From positions 1-30,488 of the IMG/VR virus record IMGVR_UViG_3300042368_001365: 30,488 nt of DNA; one strand, written 5' to 3'. A program made the position numbers and the translations under genes. The DNA is from a virus. Position 1 is the first letter of the stretch, and every line of letters begins with the position of its first letter. Below, one piece after another: positions 1 through 30,383 of this stretch. The notes below the pieces were generated by a model. That model did no database searches and had not been told where the DNA came from. It was given only the letters and a program-made list of their open reading frames with translations.

Positions 1-683
1 TTTTCAAGATAACCACCAGTGTCACCTGTTCCAGTTCTAAAAGTGAAATTTGAGTCAGCAAATTTACCACCATTTAGTCTTAATATAAATTGTTTGGGTA
101 TTTCAATTTCAATATCAGCTTCATCAATTACGAATAATGTAGTTAATAGCTTTCTAATACCATCTTCTGTTCCTTTTCGATGGTAAAAGTTTTTTCTTAT
201 TCCTATAAAGAATTTTTCTAATTCCGATCTTCCAACTGTTAATGAAGTAGAATTAAATATTCCAGTAAATGATTCTGCGTATACGGCATACAAATTTTGT
301 ATTAGATTTTCTTTTGTTTTTCTTACATCAATAAGATCTAAAATATTTTTAGAAAGCCCATATTGTCCACCAGATGAATTATCACAATATAGCCAATCAT
401 AATATTTTTGTAAAAAATCATAGATTGTTAAAACACTTTCTCCATTACCTTCACGTTCTGTTTTTTCTTTGATTACCCACAATGGAATAAATTTTGTAAT
501 ATCAAATAAAGTACCACAAGTTTCTGTATTATTTGTATTAAATCTAGGATCATTCTCAACAAGACGAGTTGCAGATGATGATTTATTTTGAGTTGATTCA
601 ATTTCTTGAATAACCAAATCAATCAATGCATTTACAGCATGATTATTATTTAATACTGCGTCTTGTATAAGATATGGTATCAT
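1..683 (-). CDS. Baseplate/tail structural protein, gp7-like (partial, C-terminus outside window)
   Basis: This reading frame starts at an ATG that overlaps the TGA of the gp6-like gene (ATGA) and stays open to the window edge, so only about the first 227 residues are seen. The visible part contains a YDFLQKYYDWLY segment and then a RKNFYHRKGTEDGIRKLL segment followed by IEIPKQFILRLNGG. As I recall, this 'YxxKGTExxxRxLL...PKxxILRxSxG' pattern occurs in large virion proteins encoded just after gp6 in marine T4-like phages, where gp7 (baseplate wedge) sits in T4. Position as last visible gene of the baseplate operon supports a wedge or fibre-attachment role. The exact equivalence to gp7 is an inference. 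Confidence 0.6.
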   Translation of the reverse strand, partial: MIPYLIQDAVLNNNHAVNALIDLVIQEIESTQNKSSSATRLVENDPRFNTNNTETCGTLFDITKFIPLWVIKEKTEREGNGESVLTIYDFLQKYYDWLYCDNSSGGQYGLSKNILDLIDVRKTKENLIQNLYAVYAESFTGIFNSTSLTVGRSELEKFFIGIRKNFYHRKGTEDGIRKLLTTLFVIDEADIEIEIPKQFILRLNGGKFADSNFTFRTGTGDTGGYLE

Positions 684-2416
684 GTACCAGCCTCTATTAC
701 CTTATTAGATAAAATTGTAAATTTAGTATTCTGAGAAGTTATAAATTTATCATTTACAAAATTTAAATCAACTTGAATGTTTCCAGATGCTATATTGTAT
801 ATTTCCAAAATACCCTTTTTAACATTAATTCTTCCATAATTTAATGATGAATTATAATTATATGAACCTGAAGAAGTTCTTACAAATGTTTTAAGTGGTA
901 CAAATGTATCTAATTCAGTAGTATTTGTAATTGTTGCTCTTAATTGTACGGTTCTACTATTCTTATCTAAGAAAGATTCTGTTACTGATTTAGTTGAGCC
1001 GACTAAAATATTAAATTCATTTTCTAAATTTATAGTTACACCATTTGTTGGTGCATCTGTAAATATCTTATTATAGTTCATGATAATATCAACAGATCGA
1101 ACATCTGAAAAATTATTTAAAATATTTGTTTTTATTTGGGCTATATCAAAAGTAATATTATATTTACTTATAATAGAATAATTTGAAATTAAATAATTTT
1201 TGATATTTGAAATTATTCTTTGTTTTGTAGATGATGATGTAATCTCTGGATTGAATTTCAATTGCACATCATAAGTAAGATTGTCCGATGTGGATTGAAC
1301 ATATTCAGGAAGAATAGTCACAGCACATTTTGTCTTAAGATATGATATAAGATCTAATACATCTGATGTCGGAATAGAATCAGTTGCAATAAAAACTCTT
1401 CCATATTTTGGTGGAAATAATTCATCGCCACCAAAAATTGAGAAGTTATCTTTAGATACATCAAAACCTTTATTTCTTAAATATACAGTAGATATTGCTA
1501 AAAAGTCATTTTTTGTAATTGCTCTATTTTGTGCAGCAAAAAACTTAGGACCAATAAATTTTAAATAATCTATATCTGGACCATTCAATCCACCAGATGA
1601 TGTTTGTATAAGTTCAATATTATTGCTTGTTTCTGCAACATATTCAAAATTAACTATATTATTTGCAGCAGTTCCATTAGATGTCAAATAACTAATTCTT
1701 GTATTATATGAATCTAAAACTTCATTTCCAAGTGAATTTTCTTTACCAAACTGTATCTCAAATCCTGTCTCAAATCTTTCAACGAAATAACTAGTTTGAC
1801 TTAAATTTTCGGTTGAATCTCCGATATTGTCTAATAAAGTCCACTGTCTCCAAACACCATCTCCTTCATCTATTTCAACAATTAATGTTGAAATATCAAC
1901 GGTGTTATCTGCAATAAAATATGTTTGATTTGTATAATCTATTAGATTCGTTATAATTTTATGTTTTACAAGTTGACGGCCTTCGACAATTAATATATTA
2001 TCGATGAAATCGTCAGCATTTACATCTGCCGCATAGTCTTGTAGAGTATAAAAATTGTATATGATTCCAGAATCATTTTTTCCTGAAAATTGAGCAAATT
2101 GAGGAATATTTGGTGATCCACCCATTTTTACTTTTGCTCTAGCAGATGTTCTTGTTGGAACTGTCACTCCTAATGGCTTTAAAAGAGAAATGATAGATTC
2201 TTCTCTTTGAGCTGAATCCAGAAACATTTCATTTGCCAACATATTGGAATAAAATGCGTAATACATTGTATTGTAACTAAGAAGACTTACAATAGATTGT
2301 AAAACAGATCCTTCAAAATTATAATCTTTAAGGGTGTCTTGGGTTTTTAAAAATTCAGTAAGACTATTTTTTATTTGTTCATAGCTAATAGAACCCAAAT
2401 TAATATTATTTGACAT
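680..2416 (-). CDS. 6: Baseplate wedge protein gp6 (baseplate J-like)
   Basis: 578 residues, close to T4 gp6 (about 660). The N-terminus carries the family signature: DYNFEGS at residues 31-37 and NEMFLDSA at 62-69, matching the 'DYNFEGSxLSxxxxLLxYNTxYxxFYxNMxxNEMFLDxA' region of gp6. In T4, gp6 forms the inner ring of the baseplate, joins neighbouring wedges and takes part in the sheath-contraction trigger. The start ATG overlaps the TAA of the gp25 gene upstream and the stop overlaps the next ATG, so these genes are translationally coupled in one late operon. Confidence 0.9.
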   Translation of the reverse strand: MSNNINLGSISYEQIKNSLTEFLKTQDTLKDYNFEGSVLQSIVSLLSYNTMYYAFYSNMLANEMFLDSAQREESIISLLKPLGVTVPTRTSARAKVKMGGSPNIPQFAQFSGKNDSGIIYNFYTLQDYAADVNADDFIDNILIVEGRQLVKHKIITNLIDYTNQTYFIADNTVDISTLIVEIDEGDGVWRQWTLLDNIGDSTENLSQTSYFVERFETGFEIQFGKENSLGNEVLDSYNTRISYLTSNGTAANNIVNFEYVAETSNNIELIQTSSGGLNGPDIDYLKFIGPKFFAAQNRAITKNDFLAISTVYLRNKGFDVSKDNFSIFGGDELFPPKYGRVFIATDSIPTSDVLDLISYLKTKCAVTILPEYVQSTSDNLTYDVQLKFNPEITSSSTKQRIISNIKNYLISNYSIISKYNITFDIAQIKTNILNNFSDVRSVDIIMNYNKIFTDAPTNGVTINLENEFNILVGSTKSVTESFLDKNSRTVQLRATITNTTELDTFVPLKTFVRTSSGSYNYNSSLNYGRINVKKGILEIYNIASGNIQVDLNFVNDKFITSQNTKFTILSNKVIEAGT

Positions 2417-9345: not shown

Positions 9346-9777
9346 ATGGCATACAGAACTAAATATTTACCCAAAAATAAAAACAAATACAAAGGAAATC
9401 ACGAAAATATAACGTGTCGTTCTTTGTGGGAAAGAAAGTTTTGTAAATATCTTGATGAAAATAAAAATATCATTGGATGGGCTTCTGAACCATTAAAAAT
9501 ACCATATTTATCACCAGTAGATAACCAAGTTCACTTCTATATACCAGATTTTTTAGTAGAGAAGCAGAATGCAGATGGTTCTATAGACACTCTAATGATT
9601 GAAATCAAACCTGAAAAACAAACAAAAATTCCAGAAAAGGGTAAAAAATCTAAAAAAACCATGATTACTGAAACCATGACATATGCCATAAATGTAGAAA
9701 AATGGAAGTCTGCTGATAAGTTTTGTAGAGATCATGGAATAAAGTTTAAAATTTTAACAGAAAAGGATTTATTCTAA
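9346..9777 (+). CDS. 4: Head completion protein gp4 (TnsA-like nuclease fold)
   Basis: 143 residues, the size of T4 gp4 (about 150). The sequence shows CRSLWERKFCKYLDEN near 24-39, W45-A-S-E-P, IPYLSP, then FYIPDFL (D68) and LMIEIKPEKQ (E86-x-K88). This is the E...D...ExK layout of TnsA-type endonucleases and of gp4. In T4, gp4 is needed to finish the head after packaging, probably by trimming DNA before the neck attaches. The gene starts a plus-strand late operon; its TAA shares a base with the next ATG (TAATG). Confidence 0.88.
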   Translation: MAYRTKYLPKNKNKYKGNHENITCRSLWERKFCKYLDENKNIIGWASEPLKIPYLSPVDNQVHFYIPDFLVEKQNADGSIDTLMIEIKPEKQTKIPEKGKKSKKTMITETMTYAINVEKWKSADKFCRDHGIKFKILTEKDLF

Positions 9778-12625: not shown

Positions 12626-13519
12626 TTAAGCGTTTTTGAATTGTTCAAAATAACTTAATGCATCAATTTCTTCATCAGCAGAATCTTCTGCCTTTGGCTT
12701 TTGCTTAAGACTTGATGGTTTTTGTTGGAAATCATTTTCATCAAGATCTTCAGCAGTCTTTTCATTACCAGCACTGCCTCGAATATCTCCACCAAGAACA
12801 TCATAAAGACGCTTCTTGAGATCATCATAAGACTTGAAATTATTTGGAGCAATGAATTCATTCAATGAATTTTGCTTATTCCAAATAGTTTCAATCTTTG
12901 CATCATCCCCACCAAAAAGAGGACTTGGTGAATCAAATTCAGACTTATCATAATTTGTATATCCACCAATCTTACGCATCTTCAACTTGAAGTTGCATCC
13001 ACCCCAAAAATCAAATGGATTAATTGGTTCCTCATCCTTAAATTCTGGCTTCATCTTTTCTTGAATCTTATCAAAAATCTTTGTGCCATACTTAAACAAG
13101 AAAACCTTACCTTCATTTTGAGGATTTGCTTCATCCTTAATTACAAGGATATTGGAAATATATGTTGTCTTGCGCTTACGATTTCGTGCAATATTCTTAT
13201 CTTCTTCAGAACCAGTGTTCCAAAGTTGAGTATTCAACTCACTTACTGGATCCTTTTGGTTAAGGGTTGTAAGAGAATTTTCAATATACCAACCACCTGG
13301 TCCTTGGAATGCGTGTGAAAAAAGCTTCACCCATGGGCATTCTTCACCGTTGATTTCTGGGAGAAACCGAATCACTGCGAATCCGTTTCCCATCTTATCT
13401 TGTTCCAAACGCCAGAAACGATCATCCTTGTAATCCTTCTTGGATGATTCATCCAACTTCTTCATAAGATCACTAATACTATTCTTTGACTTGTTCTTGA
13501 AATCTTTAAATGAACTCAT
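12626..13519 (-). CDS. 32: Single-stranded DNA-binding protein gp32
   Basis: 297 residues (T4 gp32 is 301). The basic N-terminus (KDFKNKSKNS) matches the cooperativity segment. The core has FWRLEQDKMGNGFAVIRFLP, WVKLFSHAF, LTTLNQKDPVSELN, RNRKRKTTYISNILVIKD and FDFWGGCNFKLK, the OB-fold order of gp32, and the C-terminus is acidic (DSADEEID). It coats replication, recombination and repair intermediates. H69 is kept, but the three cysteines of the T4 zinc site are absent and replaced by a GPGGWYIEN turn. Codons are less AT-biased than in neighbouring genes, fitting high expression. The gene has its own consensus promoter and a structured leader. Confidence 0.95.
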   Translation of the reverse strand: MSSFKDFKNKSKNSISDLMKKLDESSKKDYKDDRFWRLEQDKMGNGFAVIRFLPEINGEECPWVKLFSHAFQGPGGWYIENSLTTLNQKDPVSELNTQLWNTGSEEDKNIARNRKRKTTYISNILVIKDEANPQNEGKVFLFKYGTKIFDKIQEKMKPEFKDEEPINPFDFWGGCNFKLKMRKIGGYTNYDKSEFDSPSPLFGGDDAKIETIWNKQNSLNEFIAPNNFKSYDDLKKRLYDVLGGDIRGSAGNEKTAEDLDENDFQQKPSSLKQKPKAEDSADEEIDALSYFEQFKNA

Positions 13520-19852: not shown

Positions 19853-20193
19853 GGGATCACACCAAACTTTTTAAGTAACTCTTGATTCGTGTGTTCTACA
19901 GTATGACAATTAGCACAAAGAATTACACATTTCTTTACTTCTTCATAACGATCAGCACGAAGAAGATTGCGTGAGTACAAAGAATATTTCTTTTCTTTTG
20001 GATCTAAATGATGAAATTGAAGAGTGGCTGGATTCCCAGAGTATCCACACTTAGTACACTTACCACCCATCATTTCAACTAATTCTTTTCTAGATTCCCA
20101 ACGTCTTTTGGTTGTATTACATGAAGGACAAACAACACAACCCTTTTTATTTTTCTGAGTGAACTCTCGCTCACAATACTTGCATTTGCACAT
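19849..20193 (-). CDS. HNH endonuclease
   Basis: 114 residues. Two zinc-ribbon cysteine pairs at the N-terminus (CKCKYCERE, CVVCPSCNTT), then the HNH core CTKCGYSGNPATLQFHHLDPKEK and VILCANCHTVEH. The Q-F-H-H-L-D-P pattern is typical of short HNH nucleases of phages. It overlaps the 3' end of the upstream CDKHVVKM gene by 23 bp in another frame, so both share one transcript. It may be a homing endonuclease, though overlap and shared strand suggest long residence. Confidence 0.85.
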   Translation of the reverse strand: MCKCKYCEREFTQKNKKGCVVCPSCNTTKRRWESRKELVEMMGGKCTKCGYSGNPATLQFHHLDPKEKKYSLYSRNLLRADRYEEVKKCVILCANCHTVEHTNQELLKKFGVIP

Positions 20194-20686
20194 TGTTTAC
20201 ACCTTGTGTATACCATTCTGGCGGTTCAGTGAATTTCCACTTAGCAAATCTTGACTTTTCATGAATATAATAATCACGATATGCTTGAACCGAATCAGAG
20301 TTTTTATATTTATCAGGCATTGCTTGAGCAAATGGTGTTAAATCGCCATATGGGATTTTCATGGGTGGAACTTTCAAAAACCACTTAGTCATCTGATGTG
20401 CTTTATGTTCTCTATTATATCTTTCAGTATATTCTACCGAAAGTTCGTTTGTATGATAGGCAAGCCAAAAATAATTTTCAATTGTTTCTCTTGCCCAAAT
20501 TGTACATGGGTGATTGACAAATGATTGTTTGTATAGTTCAACGGGAGCATGAACAATATGTGATGCTCCTAAACGATGAATTGTAGAAAGCATCTGACAG
20601 CCTTCTACAATCATCTTAACTACGTGTTTGTCGCAAAGAGAACGTGCTGCAATAATAGGATTTTCATGCACAGCAAAAATATTCAT
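20171..20686 (-). CDS. CDKHVVKM-family phage protein (function uncertain)
   Basis: 171 residues. Hallmarks are N-P-x-x-A-A-R-S-L-C-D-K-H-V-V-K-M at residues 9-25, NHPCTIWARETIENYFWL near 58-75, TPFAQAMPDKYK and AYRDYYIHEKSRFAKW, then PPEWY. I recall this pattern in conserved T4-like phage proteins that databases often label only as hypothetical or pyrimidine-dimer-glycosylase-like; I cannot confirm the latter. The many conserved His, Cys, Arg and Trp residues suggest an enzyme acting on nucleic acid. A perfect sigma70 promoter lies directly upstream. Confidence 0.65.
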   Translation of the reverse strand: MNIFAVHENPIIAARSLCDKHVVKMIVEGCQMLSTIHRLGASHIVHAPVELYKQSFVNHPCTIWARETIENYFWLAYHTNELSVEYTERYNREHKAHQMTKWFLKVPPMKIPYGDLTPFAQAMPDKYKNSDSVQAYRDYYIHEKSRFAKWKFTEPPEWYTQGVNNVQMQVL

Positions 20687-21893: not shown

Positions 21894-22336
21894 TGCGTAA
21901 TTCAAGAAAATATGTAAATCCATCTATAAATGCAAGTAGAAATATTTTTACTTCTATAGACGCAACACCTGGTGCTATTACTTTCTCTCCAACAGCAATA
22001 TCTGGTCTTATTTCTGGATCTGTATCAACAACAATAAGTGGAGTAAATTCTCCAGTAACATTAGCAGTTACAACATCAAACGGAACTTTTTCTGCAAATC
22101 ATACACTACAATTTTTTAAAAATAGTAGATTAATTGATACATTTACTGTTGCTTCAAGAATTGGTACAAATAGATTATTATCAGAACAATTTAATAATAA
22201 TGATGTCTTAACAATAACAGCAACAGAACCTGGTAATGCTATATCTTATACATTAACATTAAAAGCTCTAAGATTAGAAATAACTAATCTATTAACTGAC
22301 GCAGTGACACAAACATTGTCAATAGGATTAAATTAA
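21893..22336 (+). CDS. Putative virion protein with Ig-like beta sandwich
   Basis: 147 residues, coupled to the preceding gene. From about residue 40 the sequence alternates strands with Thr/Ser-rich turns (SVSTTISGVNSPVTLAVTTS, then NHTLQFFKNSRLIDTFTVAS, then NDVLTITATEPGNAISYTLT), as in bacterial Ig-like domains of phage surface proteins. A head or fibre decoration role is inferred. The gene sits as a plus-strand island inside the minus-strand internal-protein cluster. Confidence 0.55.
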   Translation: MRNSRKYVNPSINASRNIFTSIDATPGAITFSPTAISGLISGSVSTTISGVNSPVTLAVTTSNGTFSANHTLQFFKNSRLIDTFTVASRIGTNRLLSEQFNNNDVLTITATEPGNAISYTLTLKALRLEITNLLTDAVTQTLSIGLN

Positions 22337-22627
22337 TTATTTCTTTTTGATTTCTTCTTCAGTATAGAAAGATTCAATATTATAAATGTAAAAGCTTTTC
22401 CATGATTGTTCTTTTACGTCATAAAATGGTAAAAGATTTGGATCATCCTGGGCTTTGTGTATTTCCATAATTGTATTTTGATATCTGCCAGGTATCAATG
22501 TTGGTTTTAATGTACCAAAAATACTTCGAAATCTTCCATTGGTGGCTTTTCGAAATACTACCTTACATATACCTTTAGATAATTCTTCTATAAGAATCGT
22601 CCTACTTGCGTTTCTTTTTAACACCAT
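22337..22627 (-). CDS. SH3-like beta-barrel phage protein
   Basis: 96 residues. LSKGICKVVFRKATNGRFRS, then IFGTLKPTLIP resembles a small phage family with 'L+xGxCxVxFxKxxGxxRxxxxTLxPxLIP' (an SH3-like fold often annotated only by fold). The C-terminal half (FYDVKEQSWKSFYIYNIESF) also fits. It overlaps the end of the adjacent targeting-peptide gene by 26 bp and abuts the convergent virion gene. Function unknown. Confidence 0.6.
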   Translation of the reverse strand: MVLKRNASRTILIEELSKGICKVVFRKATNGRFRSIFGTLKPTLIPGRYQNTIMEIHKAQDDPNLLPFYDVKEQSWKSFYIYNIESFYTEEEIKKK

Positions 22628-22820
22628 GAACAGAATGACCTTTCTTAGAAAGTTTTCTTATTCTTTTTAAATTAAATGATGATATTCCTTTTCTACGTTT
22701 AGAAAGACGAATACCACTTTTATGCAATGCATCAGCTGCTTTCTTTTCTCCAGGAGCATATTCAACTTCACGTCCACCCTTTTTAAATATTTCCTCGGTT
22801 AGTGCTTTAAATGTTTTCAT
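22602..22820 (-). CDS. Putative internal head protein, highly basic (MKTFKALTEE)
   Basis: 72 residues from the ATG at 22820. This start is chosen over the upstream one because it begins exactly with the shared peptide (MKTFKALTEEI, L-T-E at 7-9) and lies 5 bp after a perfect TATAAATA. The body after the predicted cut is extremely basic (SKRRKGISSFNLKRIRKLSK, then HGVKKKRK), suggesting contact with packaged DNA. No family recognised; packaging inferred. Confidence 0.68.
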   Translation of the reverse strand: MKTFKALTEEIFKKGGREVEYAPGEKKAADALHKSGIRLSKRRKGISSFNLKRIRKLSKKGHSVHGVKKKRK

Positions 22821-22825
22821 AAAAA

Positions 22826-22833
22826 TATTTATA
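22826..22833 (-). promoter_or_regulatory. Late promoter TATAAATA, 5 bp before ATG
   Basis: Perfect late element, then TTTTT, then ATG at 22820. Same arrangement as at 21258-21265; no Shine-Dalgarno. Confidence 0.75.
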
Positions 22834-22843
22834 TTTTTGCCAC

Positions 22844-22872
22844 TTGACAACATTATGAAAAATAATTATAAT
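22844..22872 (+). promoter_or_regulatory. Perfect sigma70 consensus promoter for HNH gene
   Basis: TTGACA at 22844-22849, 17-bp spacer, TATAAT at 22867-22872. Both hexamers and the spacing are the full consensus. Confidence 0.88.
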
Positions 22873-22897
22873 AATTTTGTCTGGTATAAGGATAAAT

Positions 22898-23350
22898 ATG
22901 TCTATGAGTACTGTTGCGTTGTATAATATGTCTTATCAGAAGCTGATTGATATTGATTGGAAACATGCTGTCGTATTACTTATCAATGATAAAGTGGCTC
23001 CATGTACTGAAGAAGAATATTTAGAAATCAAAACGGGAAGTGGGATATTTAAATTACCTCTTCACCTTGCTCTTAAAAAGTATGTGTATATTCCTTTTAG
23101 GGATTTAAGTCCTTCCAGAAAGAATATTTTTAAGAGAGATGATTATATCTGCCAATACTGTTCTTGTAAACTAGAATATACAAATGCCACAGTAGATCAT
23201 GTCATTCCGAGATCAAAAGGTGGAAGACATGAATGGCAAAATGTTGTTACAAGTTGTTTGAAGTGTAATCGTAAAAAGGGTGATCGTACACCAAAAGAAG
23301 CAAATATGCCTCTGAGTAAAAATCCAAAACCTTTACGGTTTGGGTCTTGA
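22898..23350 (+). CDS. HNH endonuclease (McrA-like core), probably mobile
   Basis: 150 residues from the ATG at 22898, chosen because AAGGATAAAT precedes it. The C-terminal HNH core is CQYCSCKLEYTNATVDHVIP, then RSKGGRHEWQNVVTSCLKCN, then RKKGDRTPKEANM, the McrA/HNH_5-type pattern with two CxxC zinc pairs. The N-terminal ~70 residues (YNMSYQKLIDIDWKHAVVLL) are also commonly seen in this phage HNH group. A stand-alone plus-strand gene with its own perfect host promoter inside a minus-strand late cluster points to a homing-type insertion. Its end overlaps the convergent gene by 18 bp. Confidence 0.85.
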   Translation: MSMSTVALYNMSYQKLIDIDWKHAVVLLINDKVAPCTEEEYLEIKTGSGIFKLPLHLALKKYVYIPFRDLSPSRKNIFKRDDYICQYCSCKLEYTNATVDHVIPRSKGGRHEWQNVVTSCLKCNRKKGDRTPKEANMPLSKNPKPLRFGS

Positions 23351-23527
23351 TGGTTTTGTATAAGTTGGTCGAGGCTTTGGTGGAGGTGACTTTTCAAAAG
23401 TATCTCCGTCTGTTGTCACTGGCTTCACTGGTGGTATCTTCGGTTCTGCTTTTGCTTTTTGTGTAGATGGTGTAGATTGTCTTATTGGATTGATCATCTC
23501 ACTCATCAATTGTTTAAATGTTTTCAT
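23333..23527 (-). CDS. Pro/Lys-rich putative internal head protein (MKTFKQLMSEM)
   Basis: 64 residues beginning MKTFKQLMSEM, with M-S-E at 8-10 in place of the usual L/I-x-E. The remainder is proline- and lysine-rich and probably disordered (KAEPKIPPVKPVTTDGD, KSPPPKPRPTYTKPSRPKP), similar in style to the 67-residue protein at 24920. It overlaps the next gene in the operon by 4 bp (ATGA type). Packaging is inferred from the N-terminus. Confidence 0.62.
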   Translation of the reverse strand: MKTFKQLMSEMINPIRQSTPSTQKAKAEPKIPPVKPVTTDGDTFEKSPPPKPRPTYTKPSRPKP

Positions 23528-24321
23528 TTTGGTAATATTCCTAAGAGAGTTTCATCTCTTGTTATCATTCCTTCAGTATCTACTCCATGTGGTAGATCAA
23601 ATTTATTTTTAATAACTTTTGATGTATTTCCAGATCGATCAGTTGAAACATCTCCAGTATAGGCATCCTGAAATGTTGACGGTGTTATCTTTCCAAGTGA
23701 TTGTAATTTAATAACTCTTGGTTGTCCAAATTTTCTAGGTCTAGATGGTTCTTCTGAAGTGTGTATAAATTTTCCTACATGATGATCATTTTCATGTCCG
23801 TGTTGTACTGCTTTTCTCCACATATGAACTGAACCAGGACTCTGAATATCACCACTCATAATTCCATATCCTGTAGCATTGGCTATAGTATGTAAGAAAT
23901 TATGTGGAAGTTCAAATACTCCACTCTTTACATCTCTTGTTTTTTTCTGTGGATTACCAGAAAACATTTTTATTTCTTTGCCATCTGGTGTTTTTACAAC
24001 ACTGTAGTTATCATGTGAAAGACGATATGTTGCTAAAGATGTGTTTTCATGACCAGGTGCATTTGAAAATACATTAACATTTAAATGATGCTTTGTATAT
24101 CCACTCGAATCTGACTCAGAGAATTTTTTATAACGAATATGAAATTTATCATTCAAATCAACTCTTTGTGATTCTGGATCATGTGTATAATTATTACCCA
24201 ACTTTTTGACTAATTCATCTAAAGATTTAATGTTTTTCTCTGGTGGTTTTTCATCATGTGTTACTTCTGGATCATATCCACCTAATATATCTTCAGAAAT
24301 ATATTGTTTAAAAGATTTCAT
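23524..24321 (-). CDS. GNAT-like putative internal head protein (MKSFKQYISED)
   Basis: 265 residues. It begins MKSFKQYISED (I-S-E at 8-10). After a polar linker, the middle is beta-rich and residues 155-175 read MSGDIQSPGSVHMWRKAVQHG. This resembles the 'lxSDxxQTxGGxxxWxxLxxxG' C-terminal motif of GNAT-fold phage proteins and also aligns with the neighbour at 24321 (ISGRVHTRGGKNIWAEL). The acetyl-CoA loop is not obvious here. If catalytic, it would be a packaged acetyltransferase; if not, a GNAT-fold remnant. Start and stop overlap neighbours by 1 and 4 bp. Confidence 0.6.
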   Translation of the reverse strand: MKSFKQYISEDILGGYDPEVTHDEKPPEKNIKSLDELVKKLGNNYTHDPESQRVDLNDKFHIRYKKFSESDSSGYTKHHLNVNVFSNAPGHENTSLATYRLSHDNYSVVKTPDGKEIKMFSGNPQKKTRDVKSGVFELPHNFLHTIANATGYGIMSGDIQSPGSVHMWRKAVQHGHENDHHVGKFIHTSEEPSRPRKFGQPRVIKLQSLGKITPSTFQDAYTGDVSTDRSGNTSKVIKNKFDLPHGVDTEGMITRDETLLGILPK

Positions 24322-24923
24322 TATTTACCTTTATACTTGAATAACCATCGTATTGGATTTGAAGTTCTTGTAGCTGTATAGAATTTAGTATAATGTTTTG
24401 GATTATTAGAATCATACACTATAGGGCGACTACCTTCTCTGTTCGTGTCATGAGCCGTGACCGTACCTTTTTGAGACAACTCGGCCCATATATTCTTACC
24501 ACCTCTAGTATGAACACGCCCAGAAATCAATGTATATTTGTTATGATCTGCCCATCTCTTATAGAGTTCAGACATCAATCCTTTACCAGTATGTTCTTTA
24601 TTTAATTTTGGAAAATTTGAATAATAAGTATTATGCTCAGAATCATGAGGATAGAAATCAGTATTACCAACAACCTTATGTGTTCCTTGAGAATCTTTCA
24701 TCGTCACATAGCCACTGTGTAATCGTTCTTGAGTAAAGGGTGAGTCTTTGTTTGAAGAATATCCATGAAAATGATATTCATTACCATCGATTACACTAGA
24801 ACCCAAAGAATATAGATCTGAATGAGCCTTTGGTAATTCTGTTCGTATATTTGGTCTAACAAATTCATCCCTTGGTGGTTCTAATATAGGGTTTTCTATA
24901 AGATATTCTTTAAAGGATTTCAT
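24321..24923 (-). CDS. GNAT acetyltransferase-like putative internal head protein (MKSFKEYLIEN)
   Basis: 200 residues beginning MKSFKEYLIEN (L-I-E at 8-10). The central part has strands (NEYHFHGYSSN, GYVTMKDSQGTHKVVGN), then KEHTGKGLMSELYKRWADHN at 110-128. That is a GNAT-type acetyl-CoA loop and helix (x-x-G-x-G/x-L-x-x-x-L-Y), followed by the strand and motif ISGRVHTRGGKNIWAEL (133-149). It appears to be a complete small N-acetyltransferase carrying a head-targeting peptide. T4 packages the modifying enzyme Alt in the same way. Substrate unknown. Confidence 0.65.
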   Translation of the reverse strand: MKSFKEYLIENPILEPPRDEFVRPNIRTELPKAHSDLYSLGSSVIDGNEYHFHGYSSNKDSPFTQERLHSGYVTMKDSQGTHKVVGNTDFYPHDSEHNTYYSNFPKLNKEHTGKGLMSELYKRWADHNKYTLISGRVHTRGGKNIWAELSQKGTVTAHDTNREGSRPIVYDSNNPKHYTKFYTATRTSNPIRWLFKYKGK

Positions 24924-25123
24924 TTCTTTGCGAGTTCCCTGGCTCTGGCTAATATGGCAGCAAATGTAGATGGTTGTTTTGGTTGTTGTTTAGGAGCTGG
25001 CTGTGCCTTTATTGGAATACCTTTTGGTTTTGGAACTGTTGGTGTTATAACACTAAAACCCCGAGGGAGTGGTTCTTCAATTCCAGTTGATGCTGGTTTG
25101 ATATATTGTTGAAATGATTTCAT
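24920..25123 (-). CDS. Pro/Lys-rich putative internal protein with degenerate targeting peptide
   Basis: 67 residues beginning MKSFQQYIKPAST. The first seven residues follow the shared peptide but the L/I-x-E site is replaced by I-K-P, so protease cleavage should fail at that point. The rest is proline-, lysine- and glutamine-rich (PKPKGIPIKAQPAPKQQPKQ) with a short C-terminal helix (FAAILARARELAKK). Overlaps both neighbours by 4 bp (ATGA type). Confidence 0.58.
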   Translation of the reverse strand: MKSFQQYIKPASTGIEEPLPRGFSVITPTVPKPKGIPIKAQPAPKQQPKQPSTFAAILARARELAKK

Positions 25124-25455
25124 TGTCTTATCCCCAGAGGAATATCTGTAATATGATTTGCTCGAATATTTACAAGTTTTGTAGAACCAGTTGCAAATTG
25201 TTTATAATGACCAGTATTTGCTATATGTTGCATCATGTAAAAAGCATAATTTGGATCTAAACTATCTGTATTAATCACTCTGAAACCAAAATGCTGTGGA
25301 TTGGGTTTTTTTGTTGGTTTACCGACTTCATGTTCAGCACCCCGACGAACAATATAAAAATGAGGATCTTTCACATTTGTGCCAACCTCGACAAAATCAC
25401 CAAGACGCATTTGCCTTTCTGATTCCTCTTGAAGATATATTTTAAAGGATTTCAT
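25120..25455 (-). CDS. Putative internal head protein with HsdS-like target-recognition fragment
   Basis: 111 residues: targeting peptide MKSFKIYLQEE (L-Q-E at 8-10), then MRLGDFVEVGTNVKDPHFYI and a C-terminal half DPNYAFYMMQHIANTGHYKQ, then FATGSTKLVNIRANHITDIP. The last part matches the ending of type I restriction specificity (HsdS) target-recognition domains: 'pxYlxyxLxs...(T)G(s/t)xxxlnixxixxipiP'. Only half of one such domain is present (about 100 residues after cleavage). A plausible role is interference with host restriction on DNA entry, as T4 IPI* does by another mechanism. The fold call is from pattern recognition and needs structural comparison. Confidence 0.6.
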   Translation of the reverse strand: MKSFKIYLQEESERQMRLGDFVEVGTNVKDPHFYIVRRGAEHEVGKPTKKPNPQHFGFRVINTDSLDPNYAFYMMQHIANTGHYKQFATGSTKLVNIRANHITDIPLGIRQ

Positions 25456-25461
25456 ATAGTA

Positions 25462-25469
25462 TATTTAGA
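25462..25469 (-). promoter_or_regulatory. Late promoter-like TCTAAATA, 6 bp before ATG
   Basis: TCTAAATA then TACTAT then the ATG at 25455; one mismatch from TATAAATA. It lies within the T-tract end of the upstream terminator. Confidence 0.55.
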
Positions 25470-25504
25470 AAAAAACAGTGTCTATGGAAGACACTGTTCT
25501 TTTT
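25466..25504. terminator. Bidirectional Rho-independent terminator
   Basis: AACAGTGTCT (25474-25483) pairs with AGACACTGTT (25489-25498), loop ATGGA. Runs of A on the left and CTTTTT on the right give T-tracts on both strands. It ends the transcript of the 25521 gene, so the following operon must start from the late promoter next to it. Confidence 0.88.
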
Positions 25505-25520
25505 ATTTGTTTAAAAATAC

Positions 25521-25997
25521 TTATTTAAAGTATTTATTTCCCCTTGCGCGATTGAAATGTTGTATATCGTATGCTTGTTCAATTTCATGAAAAGGCGGCA
25601 AATTTTTAGGATCTATTGGTGGAACTTCAAAACCTCTACGCTCTAGTGCATCAGCAGCAAAATTAAGACCTGTTTCTGGATCATAATTCATTCTAGGTCT
25701 AAGAGTTGCAATTTTATATTTAAGTCTTTTATCTCTTCCCTTTTTATCTACTGATGGTTTAGTTCTAGGAGGTCTAGATCTTGCAGTATCTTTTGGATTT
25801 ACGAATCGTGGAGCTGGCTTACCTTGTACAAAACCTAAAATTCCTCTACTTTCTCCTGTTTTTTTAAATGGATAATCTATTGGATTTCTTTTATTACCAT
25901 GAACATCTCTTGGATTAAAATCAATCAAGTCGGTTCTTTGAGCTATTGCTCTTGTGGCTTCTGATAAAATATTTTTATAATAATCTTTTAAAGCCAT
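25521..25997 (-). CDS. Basic putative internal head protein (MALKDYYKNILSEA)
   Basis: 158 residues from the ATG at 25997. This start is chosen because MALKDYYKNILSEA aligns end-to-end with the N-terminus of the 27597 protein (MTLKEYYKNRLQEA), with L-S-E at 11-13 as cleavage site. A start 60 bp upstream (26057, MDCNKSK) has a better Shine-Dalgarno (AAAGGA) and cannot be excluded; it would add 20 basic residues. The body is basic and proline-rich (TARSRPPRTKPSVDKKGRDK) with a C-terminal helical part. No family recognised. Confidence 0.62.
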   Translation of the reverse strand: MALKDYYKNILSEATRAIAQRTDLIDFNPRDVHGNKRNPIDYPFKKTGESRGILGFVQGKPAPRFVNPKDTARSRPPRTKPSVDKKGRDKRLKYKIATLRPRMNYDPETGLNFAADALERRGFEVPPIDPKNLPPFHEIEQAYDIQHFNRARGNKYFK

Positions 25998-26077
25998 AAA
26001 CTCTTCATTTTCTTTCATGTACTTCTTCTTTTTCATTTTTGATTTATTGCAATCCATATAATATCCTTTATTATTAT

Positions 26078-26545
26078 TTATTTCTTTTTAATTCTTGATT
26101 TCATATTCTCATGAGCCATGAACATTCTATGAGCCTCTTGTCCAAGTTGCTCATCAGTAACATCTGCCTTCAGACCAGGATTGTATGTTAAGTCAGTTAT
26201 TCCTGAACGAATCTCTGCACCCACCATGCCATGTGTATAATTATGAGTATGAATTTTCTTGGCTTTTTCTCTCATTAATTCATCAAGAGACATGGCCATT
26301 GGATGTTCCTCGACTTCAAGGTGATATTCTGTAGATTTTAGTTTTGGAAGTCTTTGATCATCAATGTCAAATTCACCTTCATTCGTTTTCCTGGCAAGTC
26401 TCATCTCGGCCCTGTCTATTTTTTTCTGAGAACCACCAGCAGCATACATTTTATCAAGTCGAGTTTCTAATTTAGAAATGTCTCTTTGATATCTTTTTTG
26501 GCCTGTTGGTCTGGCTTCTGAGAGATATTGCTTAAAGGATTTCAA
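26078..26545 (-). CDS. Putative internal head protein with TTG start (MKSFKQYLSEA)
   Basis: 155 residues. The start codon is TTG, overlapping the TGA of the upstream gene (TTGA), with AGGAGA 6-7 bp before it. The N-terminus MKSFKQYLSEA gives L-S-E|A, the best match in the cluster to the T4 internal-protein cleavage site. The remainder is charged and helical (RDISKLETRLDKMYAAGG, KKIDRAEMRLARKTNEG). The DNA of the first ~31 coding bases is identical to that of the 26542 gene apart from the first base. Confidence 0.68.
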   Translation of the reverse strand: MKSFKQYLSEARPTGQKRYQRDISKLETRLDKMYAAGGSQKKIDRAEMRLARKTNEGEFDIDDQRLPKLKSTEYHLEVEEHPMAMSLDELMREKAKKIHTHNYTHGMVGAEIRSGITDLTYNPGLKADVTDEQLGQEAHRMFMAHENMKSRIKKK

Positions 26546-27096
26546 TTAAAATCTCCTTCTGCATTATAATTGATTCCCCGTGCATCTAAATCTCTTTTAT
26601 GACGATCAAGATCTGGAACAAAGTTAACATTAAAATGTTTTTTAATATGTTCTATTGGATCTTCTATTGTTTTTTGTGAGATGGGAGAAGGAGCCTTATC
26701 AGCCTGAGCAAAATATTCACCGCTATTAGCCTGAGATCTTTCAAACCCTTGTCTTACATTATATTGAGAGATTGTTGGTCTATGGGCGTTTATTGCCTCT
26801 CTGTCATCTTCTGTGAAATGTATAGTTGGTTTCTCTTCTTTTGTTCTCTTACCCGTTACGAGCCACCTGGTAGATCTAGGAACAGCATACGAAAGAACAT
26901 GGTGATATTGACCAGCAAACAATCCTTTTTTTTCTTTCCAGTCTTTTGGGGGAACCCATCCAACATTATTTTCTACATTACCAGAACCTGTACCATCTGG
27001 AGAAAATGCATAAGTCTGGGCTTTCGGGATGAGTATTTTATCATCAAACCTATAGAGCTTTCCTGCTTCTGAGAGATATTGCTTAAAGGATTTCAT
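26542..27096 (-). CDS. Putative internal head protein (MKSFKQYLSEA), unknown globular domain
   Basis: 184 residues: targeting peptide MKSFKQYLSEA, then a globular domain KLYRFDDKILIPKAQTYAFS, then SGNVENNVGWVPPKDWKEKK and GQYHHVLSYAVPRSTRWLVT, with an acidic-basic C-terminus ending DPIEHIKKHFNVNFVPDLDR. The Y-R-F-D start, Gly/Ser turn and YHHVLSYAVPR strand look like a compact enzyme fold, but I cannot name it. A GATAAATA late element lies 6 bp before the ATG, overlapping the stop of the upstream gene. Confidence 0.65.
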   Translation of the reverse strand: MKSFKQYLSEAGKLYRFDDKILIPKAQTYAFSPDGTGSGNVENNVGWVPPKDWKEKKGLFAGQYHHVLSYAVPRSTRWLVTGKRTKEEKPTIHFTEDDREAINAHRPTISQYNVRQGFERSQANSGEYFAQADKAPSPISQKTIEDPIEHIKKHFNVNFVPDLDRHKRDLDARGINYNAEGDFN

Positions 27097-27101
27097 GTAT
27101 T

Positions 27102-27587
27102 TTATTTATCAGCCAAAAGACCAGTTAAATGTTTTAGATGTTCATCATAATTATGAGTTGTGATATCCGTGGTTACTTTGTCGCCATATCCAGGTTGTTG
27201 ATGACCACTAACATGAATTCTATAGTCAGGAAAATGTTGTCGAATATGTTTTACTGCGGTAATTCTATTAAATACATCATCTTCAAGTCTTTTTCCAGTA
27301 AGTCTACTTGATGGAACCATTTGACCATTCTGAGTAATTATATGTACAATACGATTATCGTGATCTACTCTTCCCCAAGATTGTGCTGGAATTCTTTTAC
27401 GTTGAGGTATTCTACGTTTTTCGTCTGCTTCCTTTCCTCGATCCATAAATTCTAGATGAGGAAAAACATCAAAATGTTCTCTTGCTCCACTTTTTTCATG
27501 AGCAAAACCTGTATCTGGATGATATGCCCAGGATGAATTATTTTTAAAAGTTAATACTTCAATTAAATAATGCTTAAATGATTTCAT
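27102..27587 (-). CDS. Putative internal head protein (MKSFKHYLIEV)
   Basis: 161 residues beginning MKSFKHYLIEV (L-I-E at 8-10). The body includes WAYHPDTGFAHEKSGAREHF, a basic stretch (EKRRIPQRKRIPAQSWGRVD), beta strands (NRIVHIITQNGQMVPSSRL) and a C-terminal segment rich in His (IRQHFPDYRIHVSGHQQPGY, THNYDEHLKHL). No family recognised. It ends 6 bp before the next ATG, with that gene's late promoter covering its stop. Confidence 0.65.
   Translation of the reverse strand: MKSFKHYLIEVLTFKNNSSWAYHPDTGFAHEKSGAREHFDVFPHLEFMDRGKEADEKRRIPQRKRIPAQSWGRVDHDNRIVHIITQNGQMVPSSRLTGKRLEDDVFNRITAVKHIRQHFPDYRIHVSGHQQPGYGDKVTTDITTHNYDEHLKHLTGLLADK
27103..27110 (-). promoter_or_regulatory. Late promoter-like GATAAATA, 6 bp before ATG
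   Basis: GATAAATA, AAATAC, then ATG at 27096. One mismatch from the T4 late element; predicted 1-nt leader. Confidence 0.5.
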
Positions 27588-27596
27588 AGAGCCTTT

Positions 27597-27962
27597 TTAT
27601 TTTCTTCTTCCCTTTATTCTTCCTTTTAAGACTTCAGCAGCCATACCAGCACCAAGAAGTCCAACACCTAGTCCTGCTCCATATAAGGCTCTTTTACCAG
27701 CGGGAACGGTTGATCCAACAAGACCCACCTTATTAGCGGCTTCTGCCCTTGCCCGACTAACTTCTTCTCCACCAACAGGATTTCCTATTGCTTTATGAAA
27801 AGTAGTTTTTGCATCTCTTATATACGGAGCTGCCACACCGACCGCTGCGCCTCCTCCAGCGAAAAGGCTAGACGCTAGGCCGACTGCGCCTAAAGTTCGG
27901 CGTAATTTATTCGACAAAACAGCTTCTTGTAGTCTATTCTTATAGTATTCTTTGAGTGTCAT
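27597..27962 (-). CDS. Glycine-zipper membrane protein with targeting peptide (MTLKEYYKNRLQEA)
   Basis: 121 residues. N-terminus MTLKEYYKNRLQEA with L-Q-E|A at 11-13, the second type of targeting peptide in the cluster. Two hydrophobic glycine/alanine-rich segments follow (about 24-45, AVGLASSLFAGGGAAVGVAA; and 92-112, LYGAGLGVGLLGAGMAAEVL), with GxxxG spacing, separated by a basic linker and ending RIKGRRK. Such a protein could insert in a membrane after ejection, for example to form a channel or protect the cell. AAAGGA precedes the ATG. First gene of the cluster at the composition boundary. Confidence 0.66.
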   Translation of the reverse strand: MTLKEYYKNRLQEAVLSNKLRRTLGAVGLASSLFAGGGAAVGVAAPYIRDAKTTFHKAIGNPVGGEEVSRARAEAANKVGLVGSTVPAGKRALYGAGLGVGLLGAGMAAEVLKGRIKGRRK

Positions 27963-28226
27963 ATTTATTTTCCTTTCTATAATGTAGGAGATCAGGCTAA
28001 ATGCTTCATTTAATATATTTAGAAAACGCTAATAGAGCATTTTTTTCCCAGAAAAAATTTTTGAGGTCTGGGAGTCCCATTATAATTTAATAGGAATTTT
28101 GGGTGTGTTAGGGTTTTGGGACTCGCAAGCGGCTAAAGGGGATGGGTTCCCTTTTGTCAATTTCACTGTCCTGTGACGTGGTTTAGAAACGTGACCATAT
28201 AACGAGGCTGGATGTTGATAGTACGA
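27963..28226. other. Non-coding junction between AT-rich late region and GC-richer early array
   Basis: No convincing gene. The left part (to ~28046) has late-type composition, with TCTAAATA on the minus strand near 28011-28018 and a T-run. CCCAGA (28047-28052) and TCTGGG (28067-28072) can form a hairpin around an AAAAAATTTTT loop. From ~28075 on, G+C rises. GTTGATAGT at 28214-28222 is the right arm of the array hairpin without its left arm, marking the left edge of the cassette array. The minus-strand frame at 28080-28322 is an artefact of the control block. Confidence 0.6.
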
Positions 28227-28286
28227 TGTGGATATCCTGTGGATAACTCTAGGTCGCTTGACACTCTCAATAGAATCGGGTAGGGT
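28227..28286 (+). promoter_or_regulatory. Early control block A: paired DnaA boxes plus promoter
   Basis: TGTGGATAT (28227-28235) and TGTGGATAA (28238-28246) lie 11 bp apart. TTGACA follows at 28258-28263, then a 17-bp spacer and TAGGGT at 28281-28286. GAATCGGG occurs just before the -10 and again at 28291-28298 over the expected start site. The block is exactly 60 bp, as in units B, C and D. Confidence 0.8.
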
Positions 28287-28360
28287 ACTAGAATCGGGTA
28301 ACTCCGTCCGATGCAAGGGCAATTCGGCCCACTTCAGACCGAACGAAAGGCTAGGCTACC

Positions 28361-28510
28361 ATGAAACCGAAGAAACGTTCAGAGACGGACGACGAGTGGG
28401 GCGATGACTTCGACCCATATGAAGATTGTGAAGAGGAAATTGCCAGACAAATCGATGAAGATGCTGCTAATATTGAGAGCATCACTAGATCGATGGATGG
28501 ATACACTTAA
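28361..28510 (+). CDS. Tiny acidic early protein
   Basis: 49 residues, MKPKKRSETDDEWGDDFDPY at the start, then a strongly acidic stretch (EDCEEEIARQIDEDAANIES). The length and charge recall small phage inhibitors or DNA mimics, but this is speculation. GAAAGG lies about 14 bp before the ATG, in the leader sequence shared with the next two cassettes. Transcription would come from block A (75-nt gap from -10). Followed by a UUCG terminator. Confidence 0.6.
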   Translation: MKPKKRSETDDEWGDDFDPYEDCEEEIARQIDEDAANIESITRSMDGYT

Positions 28511-28517
28511 ACTTCAC

Positions 28518-28535
28518 GGGAGGCTTCGGCCTCCC
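28518..28535 (+). terminator. Terminator hairpin with UUCG loop
   Basis: GGGAGGC-TTCG-GCCTCCC, followed by AAGCCTTTC. A very stable tetraloop hairpin directly after the first cassette ORF. Confidence 0.75.
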
Positions 28536-28548
28536 AAGCCTTTCAAAT

Positions 28549-28593
28549 ACTATCAACATTGGTATTGGGCCTTTGGCCCCCAATGTTGATAGT
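28549..28593 (+). repeat. Long cassette hairpin H1
   Basis: ACTATCAACATTGG pairs with CCAATGTTGATAGT around a GGGCC-TTT-GGCCC inner stem. Identical to the copy that begins at 30447. Outer arms are constant in all units; the inner stem differs. Confidence 0.9.
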
Positions 28594-28600
28594 TTGGCCT

Positions 28601-28660
28601 TGTGGATACCTTGTGGATAACTCTAGGTCGCTTGACAGTCTGAAGACAATCGGGTAGGGT
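28601..28660 (+). promoter_or_regulatory. Early control block B: paired DnaA boxes plus promoter
   Basis: TGTGGATAC (28601-28609) and TGTGGATAA (28612-28620), TTGACA at 28632-28637, 17-bp spacer, TAGGGT at 28655-28660. Drives the Csx16-like gene. Confidence 0.8.
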
Positions 28661-28732
28661 ACTAGAATCGGGCAACTTCGTCCGATGCACGGGCAATTCG
28701 GCCCACGACAGATCCTAACGGAAGGCTAACAA

Positions 28733-29053
28733 ATGTCCTACTACATCGAAACTCTCATTGTGACTCGACATGCCGCCCTTGTTACGTATCTTCGGGAAAG
28801 ATACGGAATCACGGGAACGGTAGTCGAGCATATCTCGAAAGAGGATGCGCGTAGTCGCAATATTATCGGCAACGTGCCTCTGCACGTTGCCGCCTACGCG
28901 AATGCCGTTGCTACATTGGAGTTGGATATTCCGCGCGAATTGCGCGGTGTCGAATTGACGGTAGATCAAATTCGTCAATATTCGAAGGGCCTTGAATGGT
29001 ATAAGGTTCGACATACTGACTCTGGTATGGATTATTTCGACCTCGAAGAATAA
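28733..29053 (+). CDS. Csx16 (VVA1548)-like protein, candidate phage ring nuclease/anti-CRISPR
   Basis: 106 residues. The order TRH (11-13), VEH (31-33), IGNVPLHVAA (45-54), LDIPRELRG (64-72) and ELTVDQIRQYSKGLEWYKV (74-92) matches the Csx16/VVA1548 family of small type III CRISPR-associated proteins (TRHxGA..., VxHL, xxGxLPxxxAA, LxLxxPxxxRGxELxxxxLxxYxxxLExY). That family is thought to include ring nucleases that degrade cyclic oligoadenylate signals. A phage copy in an early cassette could switch off type III CRISPR immunity, like the unrelated AcrIII-1. No cas genes or CRISPR repeats are in the window. GGAAGG lies 9 bp before the ATG. Confidence 0.72.
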   Translation: MSYYIETLIVTRHAALVTYLRERYGITGTVVEHISKEDARSRNIIGNVPLHVAAYANAVATLELDIPRELRGVELTVDQIRQYSKGLEWYKVRHTDSGMDYFDLEE

Positions 29054-29089: not shown

Positions 29090-29135
29090 ACTATCAACAT
29101 TGCTATACGGCCTTTGGCCTAGCAATGTTGATAGT
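29090..29135 (+). repeat. Long cassette hairpin H2
   Basis: ACTATCAACATTGCTA pairs with TAGCAATGTTGATAGT, inner loop region CGGCCTTTGGCC. Compared with H1 the paired bases after ATTG change on both sides. Confidence 0.9.
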
Positions 29136-29255: not shown

Positions 29256-29579
29256 ATGATTGACTTCCAGACTCGCATCACCGAAATTCGAACGGCCAAC
29301 CAAACAATGTGGTCATCTGCTTTGGATTCAGTTTCGTTGTTAGAATCATCTCACGATCGCACAATTGATCTGTTAGCCGCATTGATTGATTGTGTCAATA
29401 CGTCCAAACATTGTATCGACAATGGTGGATTCAAGGAAATTGAACCCTATATCTCACGAATGGACAGAATTATCAAACAATTGGGATTGTGTATCCCGAT
29501 TAACAATTCAGAATCATTCTCTGAATCATTCAAACAATATCTTGTACAATATCACAAGATGTGTCTTGGAGAAAAATAA
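29256..29579 (+). CDS. Early cassette protein, helical, unknown
   Basis: 107 residues, predicted almost all helix: DFQTRITEIRTANQTMWSSA, then DLLAALIDCVNTSKHCIDNG, then YISRMDRIIKQLGLCIPINN and ESFSESFKQYLVQYHKM. No family recognised. The leader contains the shared CTAACGAAAGGCTAAC ribosome-binding region. One gene per transcript: promoter block C upstream, GCCCC/GGGGC terminator downstream. An anti-host or anti-defence role is suggested only by context. Confidence 0.7.
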   Translation: MIDFQTRITEIRTANQTMWSSALDSVSLLESSHDRTIDLLAALIDCVNTSKHCIDNGGFKEIEPYISRMDRIIKQLGLCIPINNSESFSESFKQYLVQYHKMCLGEK

Positions 29580-29612: not shown

Positions 29613-29658
29613 ACTATCAACAGGGCTATAAGGGCGAAGCCCTAGCCCTGTTGATAGT
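29613..29658 (+). repeat. Long cassette hairpin H3
   Basis: ACTATCAACAGGGCTA pairs with TAGCCCTGTTGATAGT around AAGGGCGAAGCC. TTG in H2 has become GGG and its partner CAA has become CCC, keeping the stem. Confidence 0.9.
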
Positions 29659-29665
29659 TTGGCCT

Positions 29666-29725
29666 TGTGGATACCCTGTGGATAACTCTAGGTCGCTTGA
29701 CAGTCTGAAGACAATCGGGTAGAGT
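29666..29725 (+). promoter_or_regulatory. Early control block D: paired DnaA boxes plus promoter
   Basis: TGTGGATAC (29666-29674) and TGTGGATAA (29677-29685), TTGACA at 29697-29702, 17-bp spacer, TAGAGT at 29720-29725. The long leader of units A-C is missing: the ATG follows the -10 box after 6 bp. Confidence 0.78.
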
Positions 29726-29731
29726 CATATC

Positions 29732-30013
29732 ATGCACAACTCCACTCTCTCATCTCTCTCGTCACGTATTGAGTCAATGGATCCCGAACAAACTCTTGAT
29801 ATGTCAAGAGTTTGCATCATTCTCATGAAGGACATCTTTGCCGAAACTTCGCTTGAATGTAAGCGAAGTTTGTTTATTGCATTGGTGAAAGTATACCCTA
29901 TGGTTCGTCGGGAAATTTCCCGCGACAGAGTTGCACTTCGTTGGCCACAACTCGACCAGTTGCAGAATCAATTGGACGAGTTGTTTATTCACGCGAAACA
30001 AATATGTAAATAA
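29732..30013 (+). CDS. Early cassette protein, possibly from a leaderless message
   Basis: 93 residues, helical: MHNSTLSSLSSRIESMDPEQ, then VCIILMKDIFAETSLECKRS, then WPQLDQLQNQLDELFIHAKQ. No family recognised. The ATG is exactly 7 bp after the last base of the -10 box, so transcription should start at or next to the ATG. An internal ATG at 29777 is the alternative but has no ribosome-binding site. Followed by a UUCG terminator. Confidence 0.6.
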   Translation: MHNSTLSSLSSRIESMDPEQTLDMSRVCIILMKDIFAETSLECKRSLFIALVKVYPMVRREISRDRVALRWPQLDQLQNQLDELFIHAKQICK

Positions 30014-30052: not shown

Positions 30053-30098
30053 ACTATCAACAACGGTAGGGCTTTGCCCGTTAACCGTTGTTGATAGT
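30053..30098 (+). repeat. Long cassette hairpin H4
   Basis: ACTATCAACAACGGT pairs with ACCGTTGTTGATAGT, inner AGGGCTTTGCCCGTTA. Again outer arms constant, inner stem replaced as a complementary pair. Confidence 0.88.
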
Positions 30099-30182: not shown

Positions 30183-30383
30183 ATGGATACCAACTCCAAC
30201 AACGTACTTCCCCCGTCCGCAGTTACCGACCGAAATTGTCGCAAGACGAGCCGTCCCGAATTGGCGGCAGAGTTCAAGTTGTTGTTACCAACTTGCCTCA
30301 ATTCGAGGGGTCATTGGGTATTGGACTTCTCCCGAATGACAGAGGAGGAGAAGGAACTCGCAAGACGGTTGAGAGACTTCTGA
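30183..30383 (+). CDS. Small early cassette protein, possibly leaderless
   Basis: 66 residues from the ATG at 30183: MDTNSNNVLPPSAVTDRNCR, then LAAEFKLLLPTCLNSRGHWV and an acidic-basic C-terminal helix (RMTEEEKELARRLRDF). The frame is open further upstream but would overlap the previous gene and the control block, so this start is preferred. It lies 7 bp after the -10 box, as in the previous cassette. No family recognised. Confidence 0.58.
   Translation: MDTNSNNVLPPSAVTDRNCRKTSRPELAAEFKLLLPTCLNSRGHWVLDFSRMTEEEKELARRLRDF

Follow-up and report, generated by a model that had tools for sequence, protein, structure and literature searches.

Single-gene cassettes around csx16

The window, by which we mean the whole 30,488-base stretch analysed here (an IMG/VR record without end repeats), carries from position 28226 on a series of small genes that follow each other one by one, each with its own upstream block and hairpin. 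The gene at 28733-29053 encodes a Csx16-like protein of 106 aa with an ATG start codon (MSYYIETLIVTRHAALVTYLRERYGITGTVVEHISKEDARSRNIIGNVPLHVAAYANAVATLELDIPRELRGVELTVDQIRQYSKGLEWYKVRHTDSGMDYFDLEE), and occupies one cassette in a set of at least four, each of which holds a single gene behind a common upstream block. The features of this region are as follows.

28361..28510, plus strand: ORF of the preceding cassette, 49 aa, no family match
28549..28593, plus strand: hairpin between the preceding cassette and csx16, from folding
28600..28620, plus strand: tandem TTGTGGATA / TGTGGATAA boxes upstream of csx16, the second a perfect DnaA-box consensus on the minus strand
28632..28660, plus strand: promoter-like element of csx16 (TTGACA, 17 nt, TAGGGT), a consensus match only
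28715..28732, plus strand: csx16 ribosome-binding region (GGAAGG ... ATG), common to the neighbouring cassettes
28733..29053, plus strand: csx16-like gene (PF09652, 106 aa), predicted cA4 ring nuclease or cA4-binding protein
29090..29135, plus strand: long hairpin 3' of csx16, -28.2 kcal/mol, z = -9.3
29256..29579, plus strand: ORF of the next cassette, 107 aa, no convincing family match
29732..30013, plus strand: ORF of the cassette after next, 93 aa, ATG 6 nt past the -10 hexamer
30183..30383, plus strand: ORF past the last complete hairpin, 66 aa, no family match

In the cassette layout, TTGTGGATA/TGTGGATAA boxes are followed by CTCTAGGTCGCTTGACA, a gap of 17 nt, TAGGGT, the ORF and a hairpin of 45-50 nt. 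The box pair of the first cassette copy differs by one base, and the fourth cassette has TAGAGT for TAGGGT. The promoter-like block of csx16 is repeated at 28258, 29174 and 29697, and a 25-mer, GTGGATAACTCTAGGTCGCTTGACA, has four exact copies in the window against 0 expected. The GGAAGG upstream of the csx16 start is Shine-Dalgarno-like. In the fourth cassette (29720-29732) the mRNA of the 93-aa ORF may be leaderless, or its true start may lie downstream, because the ATG is only 6 nt beyond the -10. None of the other cassette genes matched defence or anti-defence families.

The sequence-only reading had placed csx16 alone under a strong early promoter. The single-gene cassette and the perfect -35 (TTGACA) agree with this description, but the -10 (TAGGGT) is poor, and a consensus scan missed the csx16 element, listing the fourth copy only. 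Judged from the repetition of the block, a strong early promoter for csx16 is plausible. A perfect DnaA box, TTATCCACA, is found on the minus strand before each cassette promoter (28238, 28612, 29154 and 29677), usually with a second box, TATCCACAA, 12 nt from it; TTATNCACA occurs 12 times in the window versus 2.2 expected, and all four occurrences with C fall in the cassettes. It is possible from this arrangement that host DnaA serves as a transcription factor for the cassettes.

Further inter-cassette hairpins are located at 29613-29658 and 30053-30098, and the cassette hairpins range from -27.5 to -33.1 kcal/mol, with z about -7 to -9. The outer arms of the four copies are identical, while the inner arms vary between copies yet still pair. 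No clear T run was found after these hairpins, which could be terminators, RNA processing sites or recombination sites for gene shuffling.

The carrier phage

Three genes of T4 type were identified in the rest of the window.

680..2416, minus strand: T4 gp6-like baseplate wedge subunit (phrog_219, E = 3.6e-70)
9346..9777, plus strand: T4-like head-closure protein (phrog_218)
12626..13519, minus strand: T4 gp32-like single-strand DNA binding protein (phrog_224, E = 8.6e-113)

Its gene content marks the window as part of the genome of a divergent myovirus of T4-like type. Its gp6 is approximately 30% identical to proteins of cyanophages and other T4-like phages, so the phage has no close named relative. 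Parts of the T4-like region recur at 99.99-100% identity in contigs from four further samples, and more distant relatives are numerous. As csx16 was not found in 44 T4-like relatives of the window, mostly fragment records, it is an accessory gene outside the T4-like core.

Approximately 10 ORFs on the minus strand between 20884 and 27962 have N-termini resembling MKSFKQYLSEA, MKNFKDFITE or MTLKEYYKNRLQEA, followed by divergent bodies; relatives (L120) have similar ORFs whose bodies differ. The cluster looks like a set of internal head proteins with T4-type capsid-targeting sequences, probably injected with the DNA. The window also encodes a pyrimidine dimer DNA glycosylase-like protein (20171-20686, minus strand; PF03013, E = 7.5e-11) and an HNH endonuclease (22877-23350, plus strand; PF14279, E = 4.9e-17).

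Cas10 (PF22335) is absent from the window, itself a fragment record, whose ORFs include no other evident cas gene. Adjacency to type III CRISPR genes, which is the usual setting of the Csx16 family though not a requirement for it, is thus lacking, and this suggests an anti-CRISPR role. Within the fragment, csx16 is encoded by a mobile element with T4-like genes and without its own type III system, in agreement with the earlier proposal of a phage location free of cas genes.

Assignment of the gene product to the Csx16 family

A Pfam scan matched the window protein to PF09652 (Cas_VVA1548, which is Csx16) with E = 7.8e-16 and 58.5 bits, above the gathering score of 25 bits. The match is full-length, aligning residues 9-92 with profile positions 2-90 of 91. 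Three PADLOC Csx16 models also matched (E = 3.9e-15, 6.5e-10 and 4.4e-7). At the level of sequence profiles, membership of the Csx16 family is therefore confirmed, the resemblance being well beyond chance. The assignment to Csx16/VVA1548 had been made from the letters before any profile search, and the motifs quoted for it do occur in the protein and line up with those of the family.

The protein was filed under PF09652, rather than as a CRISPR-locus equivalog, because it scored 19.9 bits against NCBIfam TIGR02620, the NCBI model for CRISPR-locus Csx16, which has a curated cut-off of 46.35 bits. Four other virus-type copies that were scanned, together with the RefSeq-annotated Csx16 of plasmid pDEIPR02, scored 17.5-33.4 bits, CRISPR-locus Csx16 scored 113-121 bits, and P-10H_0 (59) and Drs3 (45) fell in between. 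A profile-profile comparison of virus-type with CRISPR-locus-type Csx16 gave a probability of 99.2% and E = 2e-19. PHROGs contained no family for the window protein. DUF1874 (AcrIII-1 / Crn2) did not match it in the Pfam scan, which supports the view that it belongs to a different family from AcrIII-1.

All residues conserved across the family are kept in the window protein (T11, R12, H13, H33, G46, P49, R71, G72, E74, L75 and Y90), and these are common to cellular and viral Csx16. Position 11 is conserved as T/S across both types, and H33, R71 or E74 is not kept in a small number of the virus copies. The virus type differs from the CRISPR-locus type at T11/S11, L16/A16, L20/A20 and [KR]42/D42, so that T-R-H in the virus and plasmid branch corresponds to S-R-H in CRISPR-locus Csx16. 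An insert of four residues (VCAR-type) after A54 is present in the CRISPR-locus type and missing from the virus and plasmid branch. G41-[KR]-[HR] is nearly universal in the virus-type subfamily, but the window has S41-R-N instead.

Relatives in viruses, plasmids and cells

A tblastn search of 50,697 phage records with the window protein or a CRISPR-locus Csx16 as query revealed only Methanobacterium virus Drs3 (two records), and a virus-type Csx16 query found nothing in the same records. Scans of IMG/VR with a single protein or with the Drs3 protein gave no match, and the first alignment was too diverse for scanning. Alignment-based scans found 20 other contigs with Csx16, a count to be read as at least 20; a scan of virus contigs for CRISPR-locus-type Csx16 found none, and the virus copies were retrieved with queries of their own type. 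Two of the contigs, L138 and L139, carry an identical Csx16 protein. Hallmark genes located near viral csx16 include a portal (L021), terminase (L015 and L016), a phage DNA polymerase (L010) and a phage ligase (L022).

Cas10 is absent from all 20 virus records, from Drs3, from plasmids pDEIPR02 and pMESIL02, and from the archaeal plasmid P-10H_0. Among cell genomes with csx16, 10 of 14 have a strong full-length Cas10 match, which in at least six is on the csx16 contig. The remaining genomes have weaker, partial matches that may be other GGDEF-like domains, because the Cas10 model also matches in E. coli. Csx16 scored above the cut-off in 12 of 299 Pseudomonadota genomes (the phylum of G002), and all of these were of the CRISPR-locus type.

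In a tree of 42 Csx16 domains, the window copy clusters with 14 viral and 3 plasmid rows (support 99/97), on a long branch (1.68) whose nearest neighbour is L013, at 46% identity. The proteobacterial CRISPR-locus proteins form a separate side of the tree (96/93). With Drs3 and P-10H_0 set apart, the placement of all remaining mobile-element copies on one side has weak support (61/68). We tentatively suggest, with slightly more doubt than confidence, that viruses and plasmids have their own Csx16 branch apart from that of the CRISPR loci, which the NCBI model overlooks, and that this branch would be a dedicated anti-type III family parallel to AcrIII-1/Crn2, possibly the source of the CRISPR-locus protein or the reverse. 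The main weakness of this claim is the cellular sample, since the two genome-collection scans reached Pseudomonadota Csx16 only and the cellular copies in the tree all come from that phylum.

The Allomeiothermus plasmid pMESIL02 encodes two Csx16 domains in one chain (L003:3013-3795), the second without the TRH, H33 and RG.EL positions; it is possible that this protein is an asymmetric fused dimer. C-terminal extensions of approximately 110-160 aa were observed in the viral Csx16 proteins at L014:263-904, L022:9995-10750 and L136:7926-8717.

The window protein had been described as possibly new, which overstates the case: Csx16 has already been counted in 2 of 28,114 phage genomes (PMC12409355), and it is annotated in Drs3. 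The additions made here are a carrier of T4-like type, at least 20 more IMG/VR contigs that have Csx16 but no Cas10, and a tree that groups the window with virus and plasmid copies, away from proteobacterial CRISPR-locus Csx16.

Predicted structure

An AlphaFold2 model of the window protein (pLDDT 91.4) showed alternating strands and helices in a compact alpha/beta domain. A model of a CRISPR-locus Csx16, L024 (pLDDT 95.2), had the same order of elements, the window model having an extra C-terminal strand relative to it. A Foldseek search of PDB and BFVD with the window model gave no significant match; this result says little, since the control, a model of a genuine cellular Csx16 searched against PDB, was not significant either, although Sis0455 and Sso2081, both ring nucleases, ranked near the top. 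Sequence searches of PDB found no Csx16 structure. The window protein is predicted to be a small CARF-like (Rossmann-type) protein that would most likely act as a homodimer.

Proposed function

In experiments, a representative Csx16 degraded cA4 but neither cA3 nor cA6, and ring nucleases, Csx16 among them, are associated with cA4 effectors only (PMC12409355). We infer a scheme comprising early expression, dimerisation, cA4 binding and cleavage, and an anti-CRISPR benefit. The host Cas10 would detect phage RNA and make cyclic tetra-adenylate (cA4), which the window Csx16, as a homodimer, would bind and cut to linear products, so that cA4-activated host effectors such as Csx1 or Can1/2 would stay off or be switched off. 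The phage csx16 would then be an anti-type III CRISPR gene acting like AcrIII-1 from a different family. By analogy with the cellular enzyme, we consider it probable that the window protein degrades host cA4 during infection. Points that weigh against this are the long branch of the window copy, its S41-R-N, its score below the TIGR02620 cut-off, the Foldseek search without a significant match to a solved structure, and the absence of csx16 from the 44 T4-like relatives, mostly fragment records. The anti-type III function put forward by the sequence-only reading stands as a sound extrapolation from cA4 cleavage by cellular Csx16 (PMC12409355); no assay of a virus or plasmid Csx16 was found in the accessible literature. 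The same reading had also named cA6, an improbable substrate given that the assayed Csx16 cleaved cA4 only (PMC12409355).

Alternative explanations

Two alternatives concern whether a Csx16 is truly present in this phage. The csx16 cassette could be an assembly chimera, foreign to the T4-like phage: G+C content climbs from about 0.33-0.38 to 0.43-0.47 past position 28000, the contig end of the window is a repeat 98% identical to 28540-28590, and a contig from another sample (L026, IMGVR_UViG_3300042321_002860) ends at 28590, inside this 51-base repeat. That contig is, however, 100% identical to window positions 22229-28590, so the internal-protein cluster and the first cassette are also contiguous in a second assembly, and csx16 sits in the cassette that follows, which is built alike and has the shared upstream block and hairpin on either side. 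A misjoin at the 51-base repeat is possible but unlikely, to the point that we regard a chimera as very improbable, and the Csx16 protein is of the viral type in the tree regardless of linkage. It might also be argued that the likeness to Csx16 is superficial, the NVPLHVAA stretch being ankyrin-like and the remainder chance, as PDB sequences searched with phmmer and with profiles yield ankyrin and DARPin chains through that stretch alone. CRISPR-locus Csx16 draws the same ankyrin and DARPin matches; they span approximately 25 residues of one repeat, whereas the PF09652 match is full-length (residues 9-92), and the model predicts a compact alpha/beta domain and not a helical repeat. With one short stretch to its credit and no ankyrin family in the Pfam results, an ankyrin repeat protein was rejected as hardly conceivable.

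The main rival to the ring nuclease reading is that the protein is a cA4 sponge, which would bind and sequester cA4 with slow or no cleavage and protect the phage by titration. The orphan Csx15 protein PfCsx15 captures cA4 yet cleaves it little or not at all (PMC13148439), and virus-type Csx16 differs from the CRISPR-locus type across positions 40-62, where it lacks the insert after A54. The strongly conserved polar residues R12, H13, H33, R71 and E74 are nevertheless all kept in the window protein, which suggests that the catalytic site has been kept too, and we consider a sponge unlikely. Still less likely is a response to a different nucleotide signal, such as that of CBASS or another cyclic oligonucleotide, by a broader anti-defence protein. 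Mobile-element Csx16 does stand apart as a divergent group that lacks CRISPR genes, and specificity varies among ring nuclease families, Crn4 cutting several cOA (PMC12830947), but the assayed Csx16 is cA4-specific and ring nucleases are tied to cA4 effectors only (PMC12409355).

The ring nuclease reading, if cA4 is indeed cleaved, would add Csx16 to AcrIII-1 as a viral ring nuclease against type III CRISPR, in a T4-like carrier population seen in several metagenomes. As judged from its sequence, the phage Csx16 is not of a new kind and is plausibly a credible candidate anti-CRISPR gene. Of wider importance is the recurrence of Csx16 in at least 20 uncultivated virus contigs, together with the fact that all four of the copies scored fall under the TIGR02620 cut-off. 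The 20 further contigs provide a panel for comparing mobile-element with CRISPR-locus Csx16 in speed, breadth and sponge behaviour, and for testing the direction of gene movement between viruses and CRISPR loci.

Comparison with known systems

The window protein resembles CRISPR-locus Csx16 / Cas_VVA1548 (PF09652, TIGR02620) in its Pfam family, length, conserved residues and predicted order of strands and helices, and differs from it in lacking both a Cas10 and the insert, in having T-R-H for S-R-H and K/R42 for D42, and in scoring below the TIGR02620 cut-off. The Csx16 of Drs3 (YP_010355846.1) likewise stands alone in a tailed virus genome without Cas10, but its virus is archaeal, and the protein is nearer the CRISPR-locus type (TIGR02620 45 bits), with a weakly supported tree position. 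The proteins of pDEIPR02 (Deinococcus) and pMESIL02 belong to the same branch as the window copy (99/97), also on elements without Cas10, although they are plasmid-borne and that of pMESIL02 has two domains. AcrIII-1 / Crn2 (DUF1874) has the role proposed here, that of a virus enzyme removing cA4 (PMC12409355), in another protein family whose model the window protein does not match. Crn4b, viral Csx20 and viral SAVED ring nucleases are phage- or plasmid-encoded too, and Crn4 and Csx20 are also encoded by CRISPR loci (PMC12830947, PMC12409355, PMC12751052); they differ from the window protein in belonging to other families, absent among its PADLOC and Pfam matches.
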